Assembly: GCA_015057555.1 (NCBI GenBank)
Contig: SVEC01000009.1
Coordinates: forward strand, 1 to 64,000
DNA from: Lachnospiraceae bacterium
GTDB lineage: Bacteria; Bacillota; Clostridia; Lachnospirales; Lachnospiraceae
Direction of reading: 5' to 3'
Length of the DNA stretch: 64,000 bases
Part shown: positions 1-52,196 of the stretch, one piece after another
Numbering within the stretch: position 1 is the first letter of the stretch
Layout: each line of letters begins with the position of its first letter
Position numbers and translations under genes: made by a program
Notes under the pieces: generated by a model
Seen by the model: the letters and a program-made list of their open reading frames with translations, nothing else
Told to the model about the DNA's origin: nothing
The model's database searches: none

Positions 1-53
1 GTCGGCGAAGACTAATCCCTAGACAGACCGGGAGATTAAGTTGCAACGCTCCC
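1..53. ncRNA. Truncated copy A of a recurrent structured element
   Basis: The reverse complement of this stretch matches the 5' half of the element at 8259-8396. It shares an opening GGGA, CCCGGTCTG, CTAGGGAT and TTCGCCGAC in the same order and spacing. The window edge cuts off the other half. The match in primary sequence between two intergenic sites about 8 kb apart is seen directly; that it is an RNA is inferred from the paired architecture of the two full copies. It lies beyond the terminator of the antiporter gene. Confidence 0.5.
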
Positions 54-70
54 TTATCTAAGCGTACCAT

Positions 71-108
71 AAGAAAACCCATGGCACATAAGCTATGTAC
101 CATGGGTT
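71..108 (-). terminator. Intrinsic terminator of the CaCA antiporter gene
   Basis: On the minus strand, arms AACCCATGG and CCATGGGTT (extended by partly paired TACATA/TATGTG) close a hairpin that is followed by TTTTCTT. It sits about 40 bases past the antiporter stop codon. Confidence 0.8.
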
Positions 109-148
109 AAACTTTCGCTCTAACTTCCTATAATGTAATTTATGTACC

Positions 149-1066
149 TTATCTTATGATGATGTACGCGGTGTAGATGATGTATCCTAGGAGCATGATG
201 ATACCCTCTACACGATTAATCTTTGTTGAGGTTTTGCAGAAGATGGTGATTAAGACAGCTACTGCAATTACGATGATTGTGTCGATGATAAGCTCCGGTG
301 CAACTGTGATAGGTGCAAGTACAGCTGCTATACCTAGGATGAACAAAATGTTGAAAAGGTCTGAGCCAACTGCATTACCTAGGGAAATTCCGGAGTCTCC
401 CTTCTTGGCTGCTGTAACTGATGTAACAAGCTCTGGAAGAGAGGTGCCGATGGCTACGATGGTAAGACCCACTAAGGCCTCGCTCATACCCCATGCTATG
501 GCGATTTCCTTGGCGTTGTTAACTACCAGGTTACCACCGCCAATAATCATAGCCAAGCCTATGATTGCAAAGATTATACTCTTAGGAAGGGACATGATTT
601 CTTGGTCGTCTCCTTCTACACGATTCTTGAGAGCGCTTCTAATCATAATACCAATATATGTAACAAAAGCAATTAATAAAATAACACCATCTAAGCGACT
701 AAGCTTTCCGTCTAAGATAAGGACAAGCAAACCAACGCTTGCTGCTATATTCCACCACACGTCACGCTTCATAATATCCTTAGGCGTTTCAGCCGGGAAT
801 ATAATGGCGCAAAGACCGACTACCATTAGAACATTGAAGATATTTGAGCCTACTACGTTTCCTAAGGAAATGTCAGCATTCCCTGCAAGTCCAGCTGTGA
901 TACTAACTGAAGCCTCAGGAGCACTAGTACCCATAGCAACAATTGTAAGACCTATAATAAGTGATGGAACCTTTAAGATTCCTGCAATGGATGAAGAACC
1001 ATCTACGAACATGTCAGCACCCTTAACAAGTAAGACGAAACCGACAATCAGTAATAAATACATCAT
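149..1066 (-). CDS. Calcium/sodium antiporter, CaCA family (possible Mn2+ exporter)
   Basis: Inner-membrane cation/proton or cation/sodium exchanger of the CaCA superfamily, 305 aa, about ten membrane segments. Both alpha-repeats are visible: GTSAPE with GNVVGSNIFN in the N-terminal half and GTSLPE with GNAVGSDLFN in the C-terminal half. I start at 1066 because AAGGAGGG lies seven bases upstream; a longer reading frame back to 1138 would enter the leader. The next codon (1063) is also ATG. A yybP-ykoY manganese riboswitch lies in the leader, which suggests that excess Mn2+ turns the gene on. The substrate is therefore plausibly Mn2+ as well as Ca2+, but this is inference; the family alone says only Ca2+-type cation exchange. 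Confidence 0.85.
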   Translation of the reverse strand: MMYLLLIVGFVLLVKGADMFVDGSSSIAGILKVPSLIIGLTIVAMGTSAPEASVSITAGLAGNADISLGNVVGSNIFNVLMVVGLCAIIFPAETPKDIMKRDVWWNIAASVGLLVLILDGKLSRLDGVILLIAFVTYIGIMIRSALKNRVEGDDQEIMSLPKSIIFAIIGLAMIIGGGNLVVNNAKEIAIAWGMSEALVGLTIVAIGTSLPELVTSVTAAKKGDSGISLGNAVGSDLFNILFILGIAAVLAPITVAPELIIDTIIVIAVAVLITIFCKTSTKINRVEGIIMLLGYIIYTAYIIIR

Positions 1067-1140
1067 AATGATGCCCTCCTTGGTAATTAATAATTTAATT
1101 TGGTGCATAGAAAAAGACTTTTTCTGCACAAGAAACAATG

Positions 1141-7251: not shown

Positions 7252-8238
7252 ATGAAGACTAGAGTAGGAATACTTGGTTACGGTAACCTTGGAAGAGGTA
7301 TTGAATGTTCACTTAAGCAGAATGATGACATGGAACTGGTTGCAGTGTTTACTAGAAGAAATCCTGACACAGTTAAGATTTTAACGCCAGGAGTTAAGGT
7401 TTACCATGTTGATGATGCACCAAAGATGAAGAATGATATAGATGTAATGATACTCTGTGGAGGAAGTGCTACAGACCTTCCTGAGCAGACTAAGGAGTAT
7501 GCAAAGTATTTTACTGTTGTAGATAGCTTTGACACACATGCAAAGATTCCAGAGCATTTTGATAATGTTGACAAGGTGGCTTCTGAGAATGGTAATGTTG
7601 CAGTTATCTCAGCTGGCTGGGATCCGGGAATGTTCTCTATCAACAGATTATATGGCAATGCGATTCTACCAGAGGGCAAGGATTATACCTTCTGGGGCAA
7701 GGGAGTTAGCCAGGGTCACTCAGATGCTATTCGTAGAGTAGAGGGAGTGGCAAATGGAAAGCAGTACACAGTGCCTATAGATGCTGCATTAGATGCAGTT
7801 AGAAGCGGTTCAAATCCAGAGCTTACAACCAGAGAAAAGCACCTTAGAGAGTGTTATGTTGTGGCTGAGGAGAGTGCAGACTTAGCTAAGATTGAGGCAG
7901 AGATTAAAAATATGCCTAACTATTTTGCAGATTATGATACTACAGTAACCTTTATCACTGAGGAGGAGTTGCAGCGTGACCACGCAGGTATTCCTCATGG
8001 TGGATTTGTTATAAGAAGTGGTAAGACTGGTTGGAATGGTGAGAATACACACATTATTGAGTACAGCTTAAAGCTAGATTCTAATCCAGAGTTTACAGCT
8101 TCTGTAATCGTAGCTTGTGCCAGAGCTGCTGTTCGTATGAAGAAGGAGGGTATGAAGGGTTGTAAGACAATCTTTGATATTCCACCAGCGTACCTAAGTG
8201 CAGTAGATGGGGCAGAGCTGAGAAGACAGTTGTTGTAA
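7252..8238 (+). CDS. ddh: meso-Diaminopimelate D-dehydrogenase
   Basis: Cytosolic NADPH-dependent enzyme, 328 aa. It makes meso-diaminopimelate in one step by reductive amination of tetrahydrodipicolinate, for lysine and peptidoglycan. The Rossmann start is MKTRVGILGYGNLGRGIE. The body carries the family's conserved AGWDPGMFS and WGKGVSQGHSDAIRR substrate and cofactor segments. Length is normal for Ddh. Start: AAGGAGG 11 bases upstream. It is monocistronic with a promoter at 7130. The structured element at 8259 follows directly and ends in a T-rich run that may also terminate this gene. Confidence 0.95.
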   Translation: MKTRVGILGYGNLGRGIECSLKQNDDMELVAVFTRRNPDTVKILTPGVKVYHVDDAPKMKNDIDVMILCGGSATDLPEQTKEYAKYFTVVDSFDTHAKIPEHFDNVDKVASENGNVAVISAGWDPGMFSINRLYGNAILPEGKDYTFWGKGVSQGHSDAIRRVEGVANGKQYTVPIDAALDAVRSGSNPELTTREKHLRECYVVAEESADLAKIEAEIKNMPNYFADYDTTVTFITEEELQRDHAGIPHGGFVIRSGKTGWNGENTHIIEYSLKLDSNPEFTASVIVACARAAVRMKKEGMKGCKTIFDIPPAYLSAVDGAELRRQLL

Positions 8239-8258: not shown

Positions 8259-8396
8259 GGGACTGTGCGAATATACATTACATCCCGGTCTGCCTAGGGA
8301 TAAGATTTCGCCGACACTATGACGGTCGGCTCCATCTTACCCTGTCGCGCCCGGTTTGCAGGTTATAGCGCACAGTCCCTGTTTATTTTTCTTTGA
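8259..8396. ncRNA. Full copy B of a recurrent structured element
   Basis: The outer stem pairs GGGACTGTGCG (8259-8269) with CGCACAGTCCC (8369-8379). Inside it are CCGG (8285-8288) against CCGG (8351-8354), a helix of GGATAAGAT against ATCTTACC, and a terminal GCCGAC/GTCGGC hairpin. CCTAGGG (8293-8299) and CTGTCGCG (8342-8349) are shared with copies A and C. On the plus strand a TATAAT at 8251 precedes it and TGTTTATTTTTCTTT follows, which favours a plus-strand transcript that self-terminates. The paired symmetry leaves the strand open. I could not assign it to a known RNA family. Confidence 0.6.
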
Positions 8397-8408
8397 CTAC
8401 ATACAAAT

Positions 8409-8444
8409 AAAAACGTGAGACTGTGTCTGAATCTCACGTTTTTG
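8409..8444. terminator. Bidirectional terminator at the mnmA 3' end
   Basis: ACGTGAGA and TCTCACGT arms flanked by AAAAA on one side and TTTTTG on the other, so it can stop transcription from both strands. It lies nine bases beyond the minus-strand mnmA stop codon. Confidence 0.8.
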
Positions 8445-8452
8445 TATATTGA

Positions 8453-9526
8453 TTATATTATAGTTCCACCGCCTACTACCTTGTTGTCATCATATAGCAC
8501 CACTGCTTGGCCCTTGGTTATGGCACGCTGTGGTTCATCGAAGACTACTTGGATTCTATCTTCGTCAAGTCTGGTTACGGTGGCCAAGGCTTCCTTGGCA
8601 TTGTATCTTGGTCTTGCCTTGCATCTTAGCTCTCCCTTGATTTCAGGTATGGATATAAGGTTTACATTATTAGCCTGTAGGGTTGTGGTGAATAAATCCT
8701 CGTTATAACCTAGCACGACAGTGTTGCTAGCTGGGTCAACCTTTACCACATACATAGATTGCTTAAGGGAAAGTCCCAGGCCACGTCTTTGGCCTACTGT
8801 ATATCTTATAATTCCCTTATGGCGTCCTAAAACATTTCCTTCCATGTCTACAAAGTCACCCTCCGGGTAAGTCTTTCCTGTGTACCCCTCTATAAAATTC
8901 GCGTATTTCCCATCAGTTACAAAGCATATATCCTGACTGTCATGCTTGTTAGCATTGATGAAATTCTGAGCTGTGGCAAGCTCCCTGACCTGCTCCTTGG
9001 TCATACCGCCCAAGGGGAACAATGTGTGAGCCAGCTGCTCCTGAGTCATAGAGTAAAGCACATAGCTCTGGTCTTTGGTAGGATCTAGTGCCTTTAGAAG
9101 CTCATATCTGCCAGTGGTTTCATTGAACTCTATTCTGGAGTAATGTCCGGTTACCACATATTCATAGCCCAGTTCCTTGGCTTTATTATATAGATGCTCA
9201 AATTTAAGATGCCTGTTGCACTCTATGCAAGGATTTGGAGTGAGACCATTTTCGTAGCAGCATACGAATTTATCTACCACCTTTTCTTTGAAATTCTCGG
9301 AGAAATTCAGCACATAAAATGGCATATCAAGAGCGGAGGCTACACGTCTGGCATCCTCCACATCATCTATGGAGCAACAGCTGTGCTCCTTGGAAAGTCC
9401 GATATCCTCATTTTGAAAAAGTTTCATAGTGGCACCAATGCAGTCGTAGCCATTTTCCTTCATCAGATAGGCTGCCACACTGGAATCCACTCCGCCACTC
9501 ATAGCGATAAGTGCCTTGTTGGACAT
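8453..9526 (-). CDS. mnmA: tRNA-specific 2-thiouridylase MnmA
   Basis: A 357-residue enzyme that puts sulfur on U34 of Glu, Gln and Lys tRNAs, using ATP to adenylate the base and a persulfide relay. The PP-loop SGGVDSSVAAYLM sits at the N-terminus. The first catalytic Cys is in NPCIECN, the second in DICFV, and the KDQSYVL stretch is conserved. Length is standard. It is the last gene of the minus-strand run hydE-nadA-mnmA, 36 bases after nadA, with a terminator behind. Confidence 0.95.
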   Translation of the reverse strand: MSNKALIAMSGGVDSSVAAYLMKENGYDCIGATMKLFQNEDIGLSKEHSCCSIDDVEDARRVASALDMPFYVLNFSENFKEKVVDKFVCCYENGLTPNPCIECNRHLKFEHLYNKAKELGYEYVVTGHYSRIEFNETTGRYELLKALDPTKDQSYVLYSMTQEQLAHTLFPLGGMTKEQVRELATAQNFINANKHDSQDICFVTDGKYANFIEGYTGKTYPEGDFVDMEGNVLGRHKGIIRYTVGQRRGLGLSLKQSMYVVKVDPASNTVVLGYNEDLFTTTLQANNVNLISIPEIKGELRCKARPRYNAKEALATVTRLDEDRIQVVFDEPQRAITKGQAVVLYDDNKVVGGGTII

Positions 9527-26348: not shown

Positions 26349-27179
26349 ATGAACAAATTAGAGCTTCAGAAGAAGGCTGTAGAGGTTCGTAAGGGCATCG
26401 TGACTGGCGTACACAGTGCAAAGGCAGGACACCCAGGCGGTTCTCTTTCAGCAGCAGATATTTTCACTTATCTCTATTTTGAGGAGATGAACATTGACCC
26501 AGCAAATCCTAAGGATGAAAACAGAGACAGATTCGTGCTTTCAAAGGGTCACACAGCACCAGGTTTATATTCAACATTGGCAAATAGAGGGTTCTTCCCA
26601 GTAGAGGATTTACTTACTCTTAGACATACAGGTTCATACCTTCAGGGTCACCCAGATATGAAGCACATCCCAGGTGTGGATATGTCTTCAGGTTCTCTTG
26701 GCCAGGGTCTTTCAACTGCAGTTGGTATGGCTCTTGCAGCTAAGATGAGCGGCAAGGATTACCGCACTTATTGTTTATGTGGTGACGGTGAGATTCAGGA
26801 GGGTCAGATTTGGGAGGCAGCTATGTTTGCTGGCCACCGCAAGTTAGATAATCTTGTAGTTATCGTAGATAATAATAATCTTCAGATCGATGGTTCTATT
26901 GATGAGGTTTGTTCACCATATCCTATCGATGAGAAGTTTGCAGCCTTCAATTTCCACGTTATCAATATCAATGGTAATGATTTCGATGAGATTGACATGG
27001 CTTTCACAGAGGCAAAGACCATAAAGGGTATGCCTGTTGCTATTATCGCTCACACTGTTAAGGGTAAGGGCGTTTCATTTATGGAGAATAAGGCTGGCTG
27101 GCATGGCAAGGCTCCAAATGATGAGGAGTACGCTATTGCTATGGAGGAGCTTGGAAAGGCAGGTGACGCTTTATGTTAG
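26349..27179 (+). CDS. tktA: Transketolase, N-terminal (thiamine-binding) subunit
   Basis: 276 aa, the N-terminal half of transketolase. It has the TPP-binding segment GDGEIQEGQIWEA with NNNLQIDG, plus GHPGGSLSAAD and SKGHTAPGLYS active-site residues. It makes the two-subunit enzyme with the next gene, a common arrangement in Clostridia and archaea. It moves two-carbon units between pentose and hexose phosphates, completing the ribose route encoded upstream. RBS GAAAGGA. Its stop overlaps the start of the C-terminal subunit. Confidence 0.93.
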   Translation: MNKLELQKKAVEVRKGIVTGVHSAKAGHPGGSLSAADIFTYLYFEEMNIDPANPKDENRDRFVLSKGHTAPGLYSTLANRGFFPVEDLLTLRHTGSYLQGHPDMKHIPGVDMSSGSLGQGLSTAVGMALAAKMSGKDYRTYCLCGDGEIQEGQIWEAAMFAGHRKLDNLVVIVDNNNLQIDGSIDEVCSPYPIDEKFAAFNFHVININGNDFDEIDMAFTEAKTIKGMPVAIIAHTVKGKGVSFMENKAGWHGKAPNDEEYAIAMEELGKAGDALC

Positions 27180-28108
27180 GAGATATGATCGCAACAAGAG
27201 ACAGCTACGGTAAGGCGTTAGTTGAGTTAGGTGAGAAGTTTGATAATCTTGTAGTTTTAGATGCAGATCTTGCAGAGGCTACTAAGACTGGTATGTTTAA
27301 GAAGGCTTTTCCAGACAGACACATCGATTGTGGTATCGCTGAGTGTAACATGGTTGGCATCGCTGCTGGTATGTCTACAGCAGGCTTCGTTCCTTTTGCT
27401 AGTTCTTTCGCAATGTTTGCTGCTGGTCGTGCTTTTGAGCAGGTTAGAAATGCTGTTGGTTATCCAAAGCTTAATGTTAAAATCGGTGCTACTCACGCAG
27501 GTATTTCTGTAGGTGAGGATGGTGCTACTCATCAGTGTAACGAGGATATCGCTCTTATGAGAACTATTCCAGGTATGGTTGTTATCAATCCTGCTGATGA
27601 TGTAGAGGCTCGCGCAGCTGTTAAGGCAGCTTACGAGTATTATGGTCCTTGCTACCTTCGTTTCGGTAGACTTGCAGTTCCTGTTATAAATGATGAGGCT
27701 ACTTACAAGTTCGAAATCGGCAAGGGTGTTGAGTTAAGAAAGGGTACTGATCTTACTATCATCGCAACTGGTCTTCCTGTGTCAGAGTCTCTTAAGGCTG
27801 CTGAGCTCCTTGAGGCTGATGGCATCAGCGCACAGGTTATCAATATTCACACTATCAAGCCTCTTGATAAGGATATGGTTATCGAGGCAGCTAAGTCTAC
27901 TGGCAGAATCTTCACAGTTGAGGAGCATTCTATTATCGGTGGTCTTGGCAGTGCAGTGTCTGAGTGTGTAGCTGAGAATTGTCCAGTTAAGGTTACAAGA
28001 ATCGGTGTTAAGGATGTGTTCGGCGAGTCAGGTCCTGCAAAGGAGCTCCTTAAGAAGTACCAGCTTGATGCAGAGGGAATTTATAAGCAGATTAAGGCGG
28101 CGTTATAG
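27173..28108 (+). CDS. tktB: Transketolase, C-terminal subunit
   Basis: 311 aa, the pyrimidine-binding and C-terminal domains of split transketolase. The catalytic Glu lies in DCGIAECNMVGIAAG; GATHQCNEDIALMRTIPGM and the C-terminal VEEHSIIGGLGSAV are conserved. The start is at 27173, overlapping the previous gene by seven bases; an alternative ATG at 27185 has TAGGAGAT directly in front. A terminator-like hairpin follows at 28145. Confidence 0.93.
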   Translation: MLGDMIATRDSYGKALVELGEKFDNLVVLDADLAEATKTGMFKKAFPDRHIDCGIAECNMVGIAAGMSTAGFVPFASSFAMFAAGRAFEQVRNAVGYPKLNVKIGATHAGISVGEDGATHQCNEDIALMRTIPGMVVINPADDVEARAAVKAAYEYYGPCYLRFGRLAVPVINDEATYKFEIGKGVELRKGTDLTIIATGLPVSESLKAAELLEADGISAQVINIHTIKPLDKDMVIEAAKSTGRIFTVEEHSIIGGLGSAVSECVAENCPVKVTRIGVKDVFGESGPAKELLKKYQLDAEGIYKQIKAAL

Positions 28109-28127
28109 TTCCCCAACAACTTTATAA

Positions 28128-28465
28128 GTATGATTGCTTACGGTCCCACAGGTGGTATATCTGTGGGGCTTTTCTTTATGTCCGAGCTGGCATAGAGATG
28201 TGGGCTTATAGTAATTGGTGCTACGGGCATAAGATTTTCTAAATGTTTGCGGATAGGTTGTGGTTATATACGCACACGCTTTCAACGCGCCATCCGTGGC
28301 GCTGAAAGCTCTCTTGACATCCATGTCAAGAGGTGCTTGGTTATTCAGCAAACATTAAGAAAATCTAAATACCCTCCGCAAGATTACTAACACCCACTCT
28401 CTATTGCCAGCTCTTACTTATTGGTTATGCCCACAGATATACCACATGTGGGTAAGCAATCATAT
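28128..28465. ncRNA. Long imperfect fold-back after transketolase
   Basis: Arms of about 150 bases pair with gaps: TATGATTGCTTAC/GTAAGCAATCATA at the base, then GGTGGTATATCTGTGGG/CCCACAGATATACCAC, GAGCTGGCA/TGCCAGCTC, AGATTTTCT/AGAAAATCT, ATGTTTGC/GCAAACAT. The tip carries two perfect hairpins, GCTTTCA..CGCCA/TGGCG..TGAAAGC (28278-28309) and CTCTTGACAT/ATGTCAAGAG (28312-28332). No ORF with a ribosome site runs through. It mirrors the fold-back on the other side of the transketolase genes in size and style, though not in sequence. Confidence 0.45.
28145..28177 (+). terminator. Transketolase terminator within the fold-back
   Basis: CCCACAG-gtggtatat-CTGTGGG followed by GCTTTTCTTT. The 5' arm can instead pair with the distal arm at 28430, so two folds compete. 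Confidence 0.65.
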
Positions 28466-28542
28466 CATACCTAAAGGCATGATGGTGGTAAGGTGGAGTG
28501 TATCAGCTTGGGATGAGTGGCGTACTTCTCTGGATAGACCTT

Positions 28543-28591
28543 GAGTAAAAGATGCTCAGGCACCCATAAATGGGCACCGCATCTTTTACTC
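28543..28591. other. Stable hairpin upstream of the MerR remnant
   Basis: GAGTAAAAGATGC pairs with GCATCTTTTACTC, enclosing a small CCCAT/ATGGG hairpin. A TCGCC-gt-TGGCGA hairpin and AAAATATTAAAAAAG follow. It could be a terminator of an upstream transcript. Confidence 0.4.
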
Positions 28592-28671
28592 GCCGTTGGC
28601 GAGAAAATATTAAAAAAGTTCTTGCAAGCCCGAATCGGGCAGTGTTATGCTGTTTTTAGGAGGTGATAAAA

Positions 28672-29248
28672 ATGACATTTGAAGAGGTTAGAAAATTAAC
28701 AGGAATGACAAGACGAGTAATACAAGAGTATGAGGATGCTGGTTTGGCAAATAGACCAACAACTAAAAATAAGTACGGACACTTGGAATATAGTGACGAA
28801 GATGTGGAGCATTTGTTTGTTATTCGTATGTATAGAGAGTTAAAGTATGATAAAAAACAAATTAGAGAAGCATTAGAAAACAACAGTAGTAGAGAAGTGA
28901 ATTTAGATAGACAAATCGAGGAGTTGAAAAGACAAAGAGAGGAATTAGATAGACTTATAGATTTAGCTATTGCAATGAGGGAATGAAAAGGAAAAAAGAT
29001 GTAATGAATTGGAATTGTTATATGGAGAAAAATTACATTTAGAAAAACCTGCACAATATTGGGAAGAACTAGAAACAAATTACAGGAAGTCAGGTAAGGG
29101 GTGGTTCATTGCAAGTTGTATTATTGCGGCTGCTATTATGGGTGGATTAGTTGTATTGTTAATTAAACTTCCAGATGTATTTACAAAAGATGCACATTGG
29201 TTTGATGTAGTTAAAAATTCTGCAATAATTACAGTGATAAGAGACTAA
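28672..29248 (+). pseudogene. Frameshifted MerR-family regulator with membrane tail
   Basis: Residues from ATG 28672 (RBS AGGAGGTG) give a normal MerR DNA-binding domain, TFEEVRKLTGMTRRVIQEYE through LIDLAIAMRE. It then meets TGA at 28984. In the +1 frame the protein continues (NELELLYGEKLHLEKPAQYW, then a membrane segment SCIIAAAIMGGLVVLLI) as such MerR proteins with a C-terminal helix do. A one-base gain or two-base loss in the A-rich run near 28985 explains it. The tail runs directly into the remnant XRE gene. The N-terminal 104 aa may still be made. Confidence 0.6.
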
Positions 29249-46144: not shown

Positions 46145-46272
46145 AGGGCTGTGCCAATAAATTATAATCCGGCCGCGACAGTGGTGGGGACTAAGCTGAC
46201 CATTGCATCGCACGTGTCAGCGTGGACCCACCCTAGGCAGGCCGGCCAGTACAGTTAGTTGTGCACAGCCCT
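46145..46272. ncRNA. Full copy C of the recurrent structured element
   Basis: The outer stem pairs AGGGCTGTGC (46145-46154) with GCACAGCCCT (46263-46272). Next come CCGGCC against GGCCGG, GGTGGG against CCCACC, and a GCTGAC/GTCAGC hairpin. The conserved blocks GCGACAG (46175-46181) and CCCTAGGCAG (46231-46240) match, in reverse orientation, those of copy B. Helices differ in sequence from copy B but stay paired, which is the pattern of compensatory change. Here it lies in the leader of the DUF4272 gene, and a GCCCTC/GAGGGC hairpin follows before the ribosome site. Confidence 0.65.
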
Positions 46273-46318
46273 CTGCAAGTGGTTGCCGAGGGCGTTCGGG
46301 AAACAAGGAGGAATAAAT

Positions 46319-47512
46319 ATGTCAGAAACACAGCAGGCAAATATTACACTTTACTGCGCAGGCAGCAATCTACAGGGCTTTAAGGACAAGGTACTATCAG
46401 CCTTTGGTAAGAATGCCATAGAAGCAGTTGGGGACAGCGACTATGATTTTGAGATAAAATTGCAGGATGAATCTATGGTGAAGTTCTCAGTTATGAACAA
46501 TCCACAGGTTCTTATGCAACAGAATATGGGTATGGCAAACTTCTTTGCCCAGGCACCTCTTAAGGATGATAAGGTGAAGACGGCAGCTATTCATCAGATA
46601 AAGATGTTTACAGCTATAATCGGTATTACATTTCCTATAAATCAGGACAATAATAGAACCAATGCTATTGTGGGAACAATTCATGGAGTGGCAAAGCTTA
46701 TTACTGCATTTGTGCTTTATCCAACTATGGAGCTATTCCATCCAGAGGGTAAGCTTCTTATCTCTGTTAAGGGTCAGACTGATTTTACAGAGTACTATCC
46801 TATAATGTGCAGGGATATGGTTATGCCTAATATTAAGATGTCAGAGGCTGACGAAACCAGAGCTAAGAAGAATAATGAAATTCTTAAAGCTAAGGGACTT
46901 CCTTGCCCAGAGGGTATGCCAGTTTCAGCATTTGAGGAAAAGAGTGTAATTCCTGATAAGGAAACCATAATTAAGCGTTCAGTGGCAATATTTGTAGCGG
47001 CAGTTAAGAGTGAGGTTTATGGCTCTGGTGCTTATGAGGAACCAGATGCAAAATTATCGGAGCTTCTTCAGGCACTTGAGGATAGATATGGTAAGCTGGA
47101 TTTCTTATCTAAGGAGGAGCAGGCTTACATAGCTAATAATTCACCAGCACCAGCTGATGTGAACAAGTTTGGTTGGAGATATGAGTGCTGTGCAGTGCTT
47201 CTCTGGGCATTGAATTTGTTAGAGTTAAATGAGCCGGATGAGATAGTGGATGCAGCAACACTAGGAGAGATTATCTGGACTAATGATATGGCTTCACTTA
47301 TGGATAAAGCAGTGGTAAGAGACAAGTCAGAGCTTCTTGATAAGCAGGATATTCTTCACCGCTATGATTGGGCTTGCATCGAGGGACAGATTAAGAAACT
47401 AGAGATTACTCAGGTAAGTTCAGAGATAGTTGTGGAGTGGCATTATGCACTTAACTGGTTAACTGGAGTTGAGGGTGTAACTGACTGGGACAATGTGCCT
47501 AGAAAGGCTTAG
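46319..47512 (+). CDS. DUF4272 domain-containing protein
   Basis: 397 aa, soluble. The second half (KNNEILKAKGLPCPEGMPV, VIKRSVAIFVAAVKSEVY-like text, then GWRYECCAVLLWALNLLELNEPDEIVDA and the C-terminal EIVVEWHYALNWLTG ... WDNV) is the DUF4272 domain, of unknown function. The first 130 residues form an extra domain. Start at 46319 follows AAGGAGG. Its leader contains structured element C. Confidence 0.85.
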   Translation: MSETQQANITLYCAGSNLQGFKDKVLSAFGKNAIEAVGDSDYDFEIKLQDESMVKFSVMNNPQVLMQQNMGMANFFAQAPLKDDKVKTAAIHQIKMFTAIIGITFPINQDNNRTNAIVGTIHGVAKLITAFVLYPTMELFHPEGKLLISVKGQTDFTEYYPIMCRDMVMPNIKMSEADETRAKKNNEILKAKGLPCPEGMPVSAFEEKSVIPDKETIIKRSVAIFVAAVKSEVYGSGAYEEPDAKLSELLQALEDRYGKLDFLSKEEQAYIANNSPAPADVNKFGWRYECCAVLLWALNLLELNEPDEIVDAATLGEIIWTNDMASLMDKAVVRDKSELLDKQDILHRYDWACIEGQIKKLEITQVSSEIVVEWHYALNWLTGVEGVTDWDNVPRKA

Positions 47513-50954: not shown

Positions 50955-51027
50955 GTAAAAAGGAAAAATAATAGATGTTGTTAAAAAAGGTGTTGAAATT
51001 AATGGGTTCAAATGCTACACTCCTCCT

Positions 51028-51213
51028 GTGGTGCCTTTGTAGTGAAAGGTGAAAAGGGAATGCGGTGCAAATCCGTAGCAGCCTCTACTACTGTAAGCAG
51101 ACATATTTATAGCCCACATCCGCAACCCATATTAAGACATGCGGCGTCATTGGAGATTATTCTCTGAGAAGGCGAGGGTTATGAAGTCTGTAAGCCAGGA
51201 GACCTGCCATAAT
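51028..51213 (+). promoter_or_regulatory. Cobalamin riboswitch
   Basis: GTGCC ... AAAGGTGAAAAGGGAA, GGTGCAAATCC, ACTGTAAGC and the B12-box region GTAAGCCAGGAGACCTGCC are in the order of the AdoCbl class. It ends about 50 bases before the btuF start. It should shut the btu-cob genes when B12 is plentiful. Confidence 0.93.
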
Positions 51214-51260
51214 AATTATTTTTGACTTTTGTTGAGGCGAAAGGAAAAGAATGGAGTAAT

Positions 51261-52196
51261 ATGAAAATTTTTAAGAACAAGGTAGCCTTGCTCCTTGCCA
51301 TGCTGATGCTTGTTGTGGGACTTAGCGCTTGTGGCGAAAAGGCAAATGAAGATGGTAAGGAAGCTGCTAAGGCAGAGCAGACAGCTTATCCACTTACTGT
51401 AACAGACACAAATGGCGAGTCAGTAACTATTGAGAAAGAGCCACAGAGAGTGGTTTCTGTAGCACCTAACCTCACTGAGGTTGTGTATAAGCTTGGTGCA
51501 CAGGATAAGCTTGTGGGAAGAAGTGATTATTGTGATTATCCTGCAGAGGTATCTGCTATTGATTCTGTAGGAACTATTACAGGTCCAGATGTGGAGAAGA
51601 TTATTTCTCTTAATCCGGATTTGGTAATTGTGTCAACACATTTTGATGAGGCGAATGCTAAGGTTCTTGACGAGGCAGGAATTCAGGTGTTAACTCTTTA
51701 TGACCAGGGAGATGTAAATGGAGTATATACTGTAATCGATACCTTAGGTCAGGCTCTCAATAAGAATGCCGAGGCTGATGCATGTGTTGAGGATATGAAG
51801 AAAACCATAGCTGATGTAGAGACTAAGGTTAAAGACCTTGAGAAGCCTACAGTTTACTATGTAGTTGGTTATGGTGAATATGGAGATTATACTGCAGGTG
51901 GAGATACATTTATCCATGGAATTATCGAGGCTGCAGGTGGAGATAATATTGCAAAGGATATTTCCGGTTGGAGCATAAGCCTTGAGATACTTGTTGAGGC
52001 AGATCCGAAGATAATTATTATAAATGAAGCTATGAAGGAGGACTTTATGAGCGCTCCTACATATTGCGAGCTTACTGCTGTTAAGGAGGGTAGAGTTTAT
52101 ACCCTTGATGTAAATATGCTTGAGAGACAGGGATATAGAAACGCTGAGGGTGTTAAGGCTTTGGCGGAGATTTTCCATCCGGAAGCATTTAAGTAA
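51261..52196 (+). CDS. btuF: Cobalamin-binding lipoprotein BtuF
   Basis: 311 aa. The signal peptide ends in the lipobox LSAC, then a flexible EKANEDGKEAAKAEQ linker. The type III binding fold has RVVSVAPNLTEVVYKLG, LVGRSDYCDYP and PDLVIVSTHFDE, typical of BtuF. It hands corrinoids to BtuC. Start at 51261 follows GGAGTAAT; an upstream in-frame start at 51222 lies inside the riboswitch tail. Confidence 0.92.
   Translation: MKIFKNKVALLLAMLMLVVGLSACGEKANEDGKEAAKAEQTAYPLTVTDTNGESVTIEKEPQRVVSVAPNLTEVVYKLGAQDKLVGRSDYCDYPAEVSAIDSVGTITGPDVEKIISLNPDLVIVSTHFDEANAKVLDEAGIQVLTLYDQGDVNGVYTVIDTLGQALNKNAEADACVEDMKKTIADVETKVKDLEKPTVYYVVGYGEYGDYTAGGDTFIHGIIEAAGGDNIAKDISGWSISLEILVEADPKIIIINEAMKEDFMSAPTYCELTAVKEGRVYTLDVNMLERQGYRNAEGVKALAEIFHPEAFK

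Follow-up and report, generated by a model that had tools for sequence, protein, structure and literature searches.

Small dispersed folded repeats restricted to one clade are described for Streptococcus pneumoniae, in which SPRITE, BOX and RUP insert into one another, and SPRITE and BOX occur in 30 and 125 copies per genome, respectively (PMC3049150). The SPRITE repeat, according to the same description, is terminator-like, is enriched between convergent genes and near 3' ends, and has an 18-bp duplex, a U-rich tract and AAAA/TTTT ends (PMC3049150). REP/BIME sequences are given as imperfect palindromes that lie 3' of genes and in the gaps where ORFs converge (PMC3733652), and MITEs as non-coding, intergenic, multicopy sequences with inverted repeats and predicted folded transcripts (PMC10969869). 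The Rfam type of TwoAYGGAY (RF01731) is Cis-reg; in PMC2864571 it is listed as a probable RNA, not as cis-regulatory.

The element analysed here shares with SPRITE, BOX and RUP its small size, folding, dispersal and clade restriction, with SPRITE the terminator-like features and the location between convergent genes and near 3' ends, and with all three the insertion of copies into one another. It differs from SPRITE, as described, in having a conserved asymmetric core of about 80 nt, seated on long palindromic arms that differ from copy to copy and covary. By these likenesses SPRITE, together with BOX and RUP, would be the closest printed analogue found; open-licence PMC text yielded no description of the element itself. 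Like REP/BIME sequences, it is an imperfect palindrome downstream of genes and between convergent ORFs, but it has no GTAG/CGTC tag and is distinguished by its core and variable arms. Like MITEs, it is non-coding, intergenic and multicopy, with inverted repeats and a predicted folded transcript; unlike them, it gave no target-site duplication signal and no parent insertion sequence in the searches reported below, and it consists mostly of single capped hairpins without a fixed terminal repeat, although its 669-bp units are MITE-like in their long terminal inverted repeats (TIRs). TwoAYGGAY, whose core is distinct from that of the element, likewise lies within long palindromic arms in this genus, and fills the second, sometimes both, branches of TIR-bounded units. 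The bcr1 repeat of the Bacillus cereus group is a group-restricted folded chromosomal repeat with mobile features, to which the element is likened by description only.

The window, a stretch of 64,000 nucleotides (G000:C2:1-64000), starts at the beginning of contig C2 in an uncultured Lachnospiraceae genome (G000, here the own genome; 2.54 Mb, 27 contigs, 87% complete). The three copies that a sequence-only reading had reported in it are all found at real places, one of them cut by the contig end. The relevant features are as follows.

1-144, minus strand: cut end of a composite unit, with terminal inverted repeat (121-144), terminator-like hairpin (74-101) and half-core (1-54)
149-1138, minus strand: sodium/calcium exchanger gene, after which the cut unit comes
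7252-8238, plus strand: diaminopimelate dehydrogenase gene ddh, upstream of the 8259 copy
8259-8379, plus strand: full copy between ddh and a convergent tRNA methyltransferase-family gene, with arms 8259-8269 (GGGACTGTGCG) and 8369-8379 (CGCACAGTCCC) and core 8282-8357
8380-8396, plus strand: T-rich, terminator-like tail directly 3' of the right arm of the 8259 copy
8408-8444, strand not given: separate ordinary terminator-like hairpin adjoining the 8259 copy
8453-9526, minus strand: tRNA methyltransferase-family gene (tRNA_Me_trans), convergent to ddh
28218-28381, minus strand: TwoAYGGAY RNA (RF01731) in long palindromic arms (28101-28660), without the core
46145-46272, minus strand: full copy in the DUF4272 leader, antisense to the DUF4272 gene, with core 46166-46248 (minus strand)
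46298-47512, plus strand: DUF4272 gene, in the frame as scanned; the likelier start is the ATG at about 46320

Each of the two full copies, 8259-8379 (plus) and 46145-46272 (minus), forms one long hairpin on either strand, whether folded as RNA or as DNA. The RNA z-scores for the two strands of the two copies are -5.6, -7.0, -4.4 and -2.9, and a single shuffle of 4 x 200 folded equally well. The conserved blocks had been read as lying in a fixed order; this holds after re-orientation and not as they stand on the plus strand, because the 8259 copy (plus strand) is the reverse complement of the 46145 copy. The first full copy had been extended to 8396; its arms stop at 8379, and the remainder is the T-rich tail. 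At the window start only the left part of a copy is present, with one half-core and with CCCTAGACAG in place of CCCTAGGCAG. The 8259 copy need not be the terminator at its site, because the separate terminator-like hairpin at 8408-8444 adjoins it. Rfam matches elsewhere in the own genome include a cobalamin riboswitch (RF00174, 86.4 bits) in the window at 51013-51225 (plus), upstream of ORF 51222-52196, and a glmS ribozyme (RF00234, 63.4 bits) at L294:2174-2332 (minus).

BLAST of the own genome found 22 places with the 8259 copy and 25 with the 46145 copy. A covariance model (R1) built from 39 copies recovered 40 copies there (E 1.4e-18 to 2.8e-11), together with two weak antisense matches (E 0.01-0.04); of these 40, the copy at C11:7471 was left out of every alignment. 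Matches occur in seven of the 37 genomes of the genus: 40 in the own genome, 28 in G005, 42 in G010, 40 in G013, 11 in G015, 3 in G014 and 2 in G024. In G014 and G024 the core has a related but divergent form: CCTGGGG is present, and the apex, itself conserved, is not that of the main form. These low-copy relatives (L044, L045, L051, L052, L058) also have variable arms, and L051 carries a second left half just ahead of the core, possibly nested. The nearest genomes without matches, judged by identity over the ddh stretch, are G006, G016 and G017. When a combined model (R2) was run for distant relatives over 41 genomes, a draw that left out G014 and G015, only G024 matched beyond the main carriers. 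The element was not found in the other 298 genomes of a 299-genome family sample (about one per genus, under stricter filters). A pattern scan of the GTDB genome collection returned 81 stretches; they lie in four Lachnospiraceae MAGs (SIG302 and, from gut, RGIG4033 of roe deer, RGIG6221 of sheep and RGIG8543 of water deer) and in three genomes of unrelated bacteria. The matches in these last three (L121, L123, L152), like those in three viral contigs, were taken as chance, the model giving one match among the six, at E 2.7. A phage or plasmid origin was rejected, the 8259 copy being unmatched in collections of phage (50,697 records) and plasmid (72,556 records) sequences. The element is multicopy and restricted to one clade of an uncultured Lachnospiraceae genus.

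After four of 123 distinct copies had been dropped as too near a locus end, 119 copies from five species remained. In these, the left side of the core has the recurring letters CCGG-CTGCCTA-GGG, the right side has C-CTG-(T/G/C)-CGCGG-CGG, and the inner helix is CGC(T/C)GAC paired with GTC(A/G)GCT. Both-sided changes affect 12 of the 23 modelled core pairs, against 6.0 in shuffles, among the 37 distinct own copies, and the covariation score of the core in the same copies is 0.250, against 0.109 when shuffled and at most 0.084 when slid. In the own genome, the cells with both-sided change number 68 (16.5 in shuffles), and 91.5% of core cells are paired, a fraction that falls to 47.6% or less when the alignment is slid by 1 to 3 columns. 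The letters read as core bulges are near-invariant (T15 in 118 of the 119 copies, C80 in 114), and the conserved letters lie mostly inside or beside helices, not in an open seed. Columns 13/77 hold C.U in 86 copies, U.C in 10, C-G in 18 and other combinations in 5, and thus behave as though only a C-G pair or a mismatch of pyrimidines were tolerated there. Outside the core, six of 60 flank columns reach an identity of 0.7 (highest 0.92), the left flanks being A-rich and the right ones T-rich. No family of Rfam 15 matched the core at gathering score, either in the window or in a set of 20 loci that contain long-form copies or the frame of such copies, and among matches at E up to 5 in five loci none overlapped the core stretch; the earlier failure to place the core in a known RNA family is borne out by this comparison. 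At one locus of G005 (L163, about 1340-1470), the core has become a near-perfect palindrome, its left half being the complement of the right, which indicates template switching as a force on these hairpins.

The arm sequences vary from copy to copy, each being complementary to its own partner. Cognate arm duplexes of the 39 own copies average -27.2 kcal/mol, against -14.2 for swapped arms, a difference matched in 0 of 20,000 permutations; over all 119 copies, the corresponding values are -27.2 for cognate and -13.6 kcal/mol for non-cognate arms. The comparison was extended to orthologous sites in 16 flip-free site groups picked by hand plus L131, with pairs that share sequences, so that a p-value for it can serve as a guide only. 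Here the cognate arms were more stable than cross-species swaps in 29 of 38 pairs, and equal or slightly worse in 9; pairing is therefore kept at single sites despite the change of letters. The 8259 site illustrates this: the left arm is GGGACTGTGCG in the own genome, AGAGGGCTGTGC in G010, ACGAGGTTGTGCG in G013 and G005, and GAGGGCTGTGC in G015, each with a matching complement of its own. In the L115 group, one stem block is altered in both arms. Wobble pairs in the arms have no overall strand bias (71 versus 65) and so give no sign of selection on one strand as RNA. The arms are rewritten copy by copy with their pairing preserved, and the structure of the element is under selection, as had been proposed from covariation and as core covariation, cognate arm pairing and the orthologous sites all bear out. 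A covariance search had been suggested as the means of checking this; it gave many further copies and strong covariation, so the contrary outcome is absent.

Gene context was derived from a greedy choice of ORFs of at least 70 aa, with no annotation used. Ten further copies had no gene call on both sides, which leaves 109 of the 119 placed, with the identical L079 and L155 both counted. Because copies at orthologous sites do not count as independent, the figures are given for the own genome wherever they could be. Convergent genes flank 65 of the placed copies and divergent genes 3; the others lie between co-directional genes, 18 of them in sense and 23 in antisense orientation. Of the 38 placed in the own genome, 22 are convergent, 16 co-directional and 0 divergent. 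The gap between convergent genes is strongly preferred by the element (22 of 38 own copies, whereas 6 of the 57 pairs of adjacent genes in the window are convergent; Fisher p 1.5e-6). The distance from stop codon to core is often 28-45 bp, and in 31 of the 38 own copies the left end is toward the nearer gene (p 1e-4). Among orthologous groups, opposite orientations occur in 8 of 16 convergent groups and in none of the 8 others (p 0.022; 24 groups), or in 6 of 14 when two groups with two copies per genome are removed (p 0.051). The 76 neighbouring proteins matched 146 Pfam families, none of them in more than two proteins, and no transposase was among the 25 commonest of these families. Since the neighbours share no family, the repeated element is not supported as a regulatory one of the regulon type, and a regulon was ruled against.

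Terminator features were scored as T (or A) at no fewer than six of the eight positions beyond the arm. A left A-tract is a U-tract in the transcript of a gene antisense to the copy. Convergent copies have a left A-tract in 38/65 cases and a right T-tract in 36/65, against 4 and 3 for the complementary-base controls. Leader copies antisense to their gene have none of the former (0/13, from 8 sites) and few of the latter (3/13). Antisense copies closer to the end of the upstream gene carry the left A-tract in 8/10 cases, and sense copies between co-directional genes are weaker, with a right T-tract in 6/18. The feature of an intrinsic terminator, a GC-containing hairpin followed by a U-tract, is present at part of the gene-end copies, and the A/T tracts, where they occur, appear to match the termination need of each site. 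Non-carrier genomes have an unrelated ordinary hairpin at the matching site of the 8259 copy (L164), and ordinary hairpins at three more (L248/L249, L250/L251, L254/L255); L247 and L253 (G017) are rearranged and uninformative for this comparison. A hit to a plain terminator, which would have told against a distinct element, was not encountered, yet many copies have terminator-like tails.

Some copies are nested in others. At three loci, represented by own-genome L037 (the same place as L019 and L020), L084 and L079 (L155 identical), a copy lies inside another whose apex it has replaced. At one leader site (L126), a carrier is without the core where four others are filled, an ambiguous empty site; a clean empty-site junction was not found. 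Direct repeats of at least 7 flank 17 of the 119 copies, with 16.4 expected, and target-site duplications may have decayed. Many sites are common to several species, and much of the copy set is therefore old. The transposase search across whole genomes covered the Y1_Tnp family, which had no match in G000, G005, G010 or G013 (genomes 82-98% complete) and one 43-aa open fragment only in G015. As a sign of an autonomous copy, core halves standing apart from each other were looked for in the loci examined; the search returned full copies, nested or partial copies, chance half-matches and divergent relatives, and no autonomous element. Among the same loci no parent insertion sequence was found. 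Nor did any insertion sequence end come to light.

Some of the copies are enclosed in a longer palindrome, which opens with a terminator-like hairpin; the exact pattern of this hairpin occurs in four of the 37 genus genomes, all carriers. Two unrelated loci, L006 and L007, hold a repeat of about 669 bp (668-bp alignment at 94.6% identity). The ends of the L006 unit, ATAAATTACATTATAGGAAGTT and AACTTCCTATAATGTAATTTAT, are long terminal inverted repeats, and paired TIR ends are present in all five carriers examined; single capped hairpins have variable arms and no fixed terminal repeat. The predicted fold of the L006/L007 unit has two branches closed by the ends, with the core and TwoAYGGAY as their caps. 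RF01731 matches in 4 of the 20 loci with long-form copies or their frame, always beside the element core and never on it, and AYGGAY loops are absent from the core consensus. The element and TwoAYGGAY thus occur together in TIR-bounded units of about 669 bp. At L297, L298 and L299, TwoAYGGAY occupies both branches in opposite orientations, and units of G005 (L227, L231) have kept TwoAYGGAY with the core lost or halved. The core and TwoAYGGAY can thus stand in for each other within a single kind of unit. Further left unit ends stand at the ends of contigs C1, C2 (the window start) and C23, a pattern suggesting that the assembly breaks at recent, near-identical copies.

Within the window, the RNA at 28218-28381 lies between a transketolase-family gene (27173-28108, plus) and a convergent ORF (28656-29078, minus), and the arrangement at 28101-28660 is the architecture of the element minus its core. 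Related repeat ends are also found close to the ends of contigs C7, C22, C17 and C15. One unit site in three species (L296, L298, L300) has about 209, 734 and 462 bp between the repeat ends, lengths that look like branch loss by deletion. Because caps exchange places, because at three loci a copy occupies another copy's apex and because each copy has arms of its own, we tentatively entertain the view that these are modular 'capped hairpins', in which a mechanism would graft one of at least two structured caps (core or TwoAYGGAY) onto hairpin apices and rewrite the arms; it is plausible without being the likelier outcome. If so, a mobile palindrome system would have TwoAYGGAY among its caps.

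The element is probably, in our judgement, a dispersed mobile-type structured repeat that has in part been co-opted as terminators. The sequence-only reading had listed a small mobile structure or repeated element among its options, and this one gains support from the nested copies, the near-identical 669-bp units and the patchy distribution. The element would spread, or would recently have spread, through a putative trans-acting mechanism, with the cap or the hairpin as what it recognises. Copies at gene ends would be retained since an arm followed by a U-tract would act as an intrinsic terminator, and would do so in both directions where genes converge, and leader copies would persist only without a U-tract facing the gene. 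Arm complementarity would be maintained by compensatory change and perhaps by template-switch correction, and the cap bulges would be preserved by selection or by homogenisation among copies. There is another explanation that we regard as doubtful though deserving of weight, namely a cis-acting functional RNA domain whose cap binds a protein or ligand (for 3'-end protection, decay or leader control) and whose useful copies have multiplied. Near-invariant bulges and a covarying pyrimidine mismatch are expected of an RNA-protein site, and compensatory change at single sites, the left end facing the nearer gene in 31 of 38 own copies and the confinement of orientation flips to convergent site groups (8/16 against 0/8) all fit it. 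Against it stand neighbours without a common function, the two orientations at co-directional gene ends (18 sense, 23 antisense), arm wobble pairs without strand bias and the destruction of the outer cap by nested copies. The present data fit a mobility role of the cap and a protein-binding RNA role alike, and the leader copies may have a regulatory role.

A trans-acting small RNA present in many paralogues, another of the early suggestions, would account for many folded intergenic copies with a conserved core, but these sit within gene ends and leaders and carry tails that differ from site to site, their conserved letters lie mostly in or near helices instead of an open seed, and there is no sign that one copy dominates; we find it quite improbable, and the suggestion is not supported. 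Slighter still is the prospect that this is a palindrome of the REP/BIME type, mobilised by a transposase of the RAYT or IS200/IS605 kind: the element resembles REPs, as described, in being an imperfect, intergenic palindrome downstream of genes (PMC3733652), but a GTAG/CGTC tag (or its complement) occurs at one offset in at most 6 of 119 copies and Y1_Tnp was not found in four of the five main carriers. With neither the tag in these copies nor the transposase in these four carriers found, the REP/RAYT explanation was rejected. Template switching in quasipalindromes, acting with neither selection nor mobility, could make and keep pairing, and the left half-core of L163 replaced by the complement of the right half, like the stem block changed in both arms of the L115 group, is what it would produce. 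It would, however, remove the asymmetric bulges, although 114-118 of 119 copies retain them, and it leaves a common core at unrelated sites unexplained. The shared core excludes it as a full explanation, and as such it is scarcely credible, although it may still act on the arms.

For the wider reading of such sequences the element holds a caution, in that covariation alone, in a multicopy palindrome, need not imply a regulatory RNA. It adds a well-marked family of structured intergenic repeats to the gut Lachnospiraceae and offers a natural experiment on selection acting on a hairpin as RNA (terminator or protein site) or as DNA (mobility). It also links TwoAYGGAY, an Rfam family without an assigned role, to a mobile-type unit, which makes the question of what that RNA is testable.
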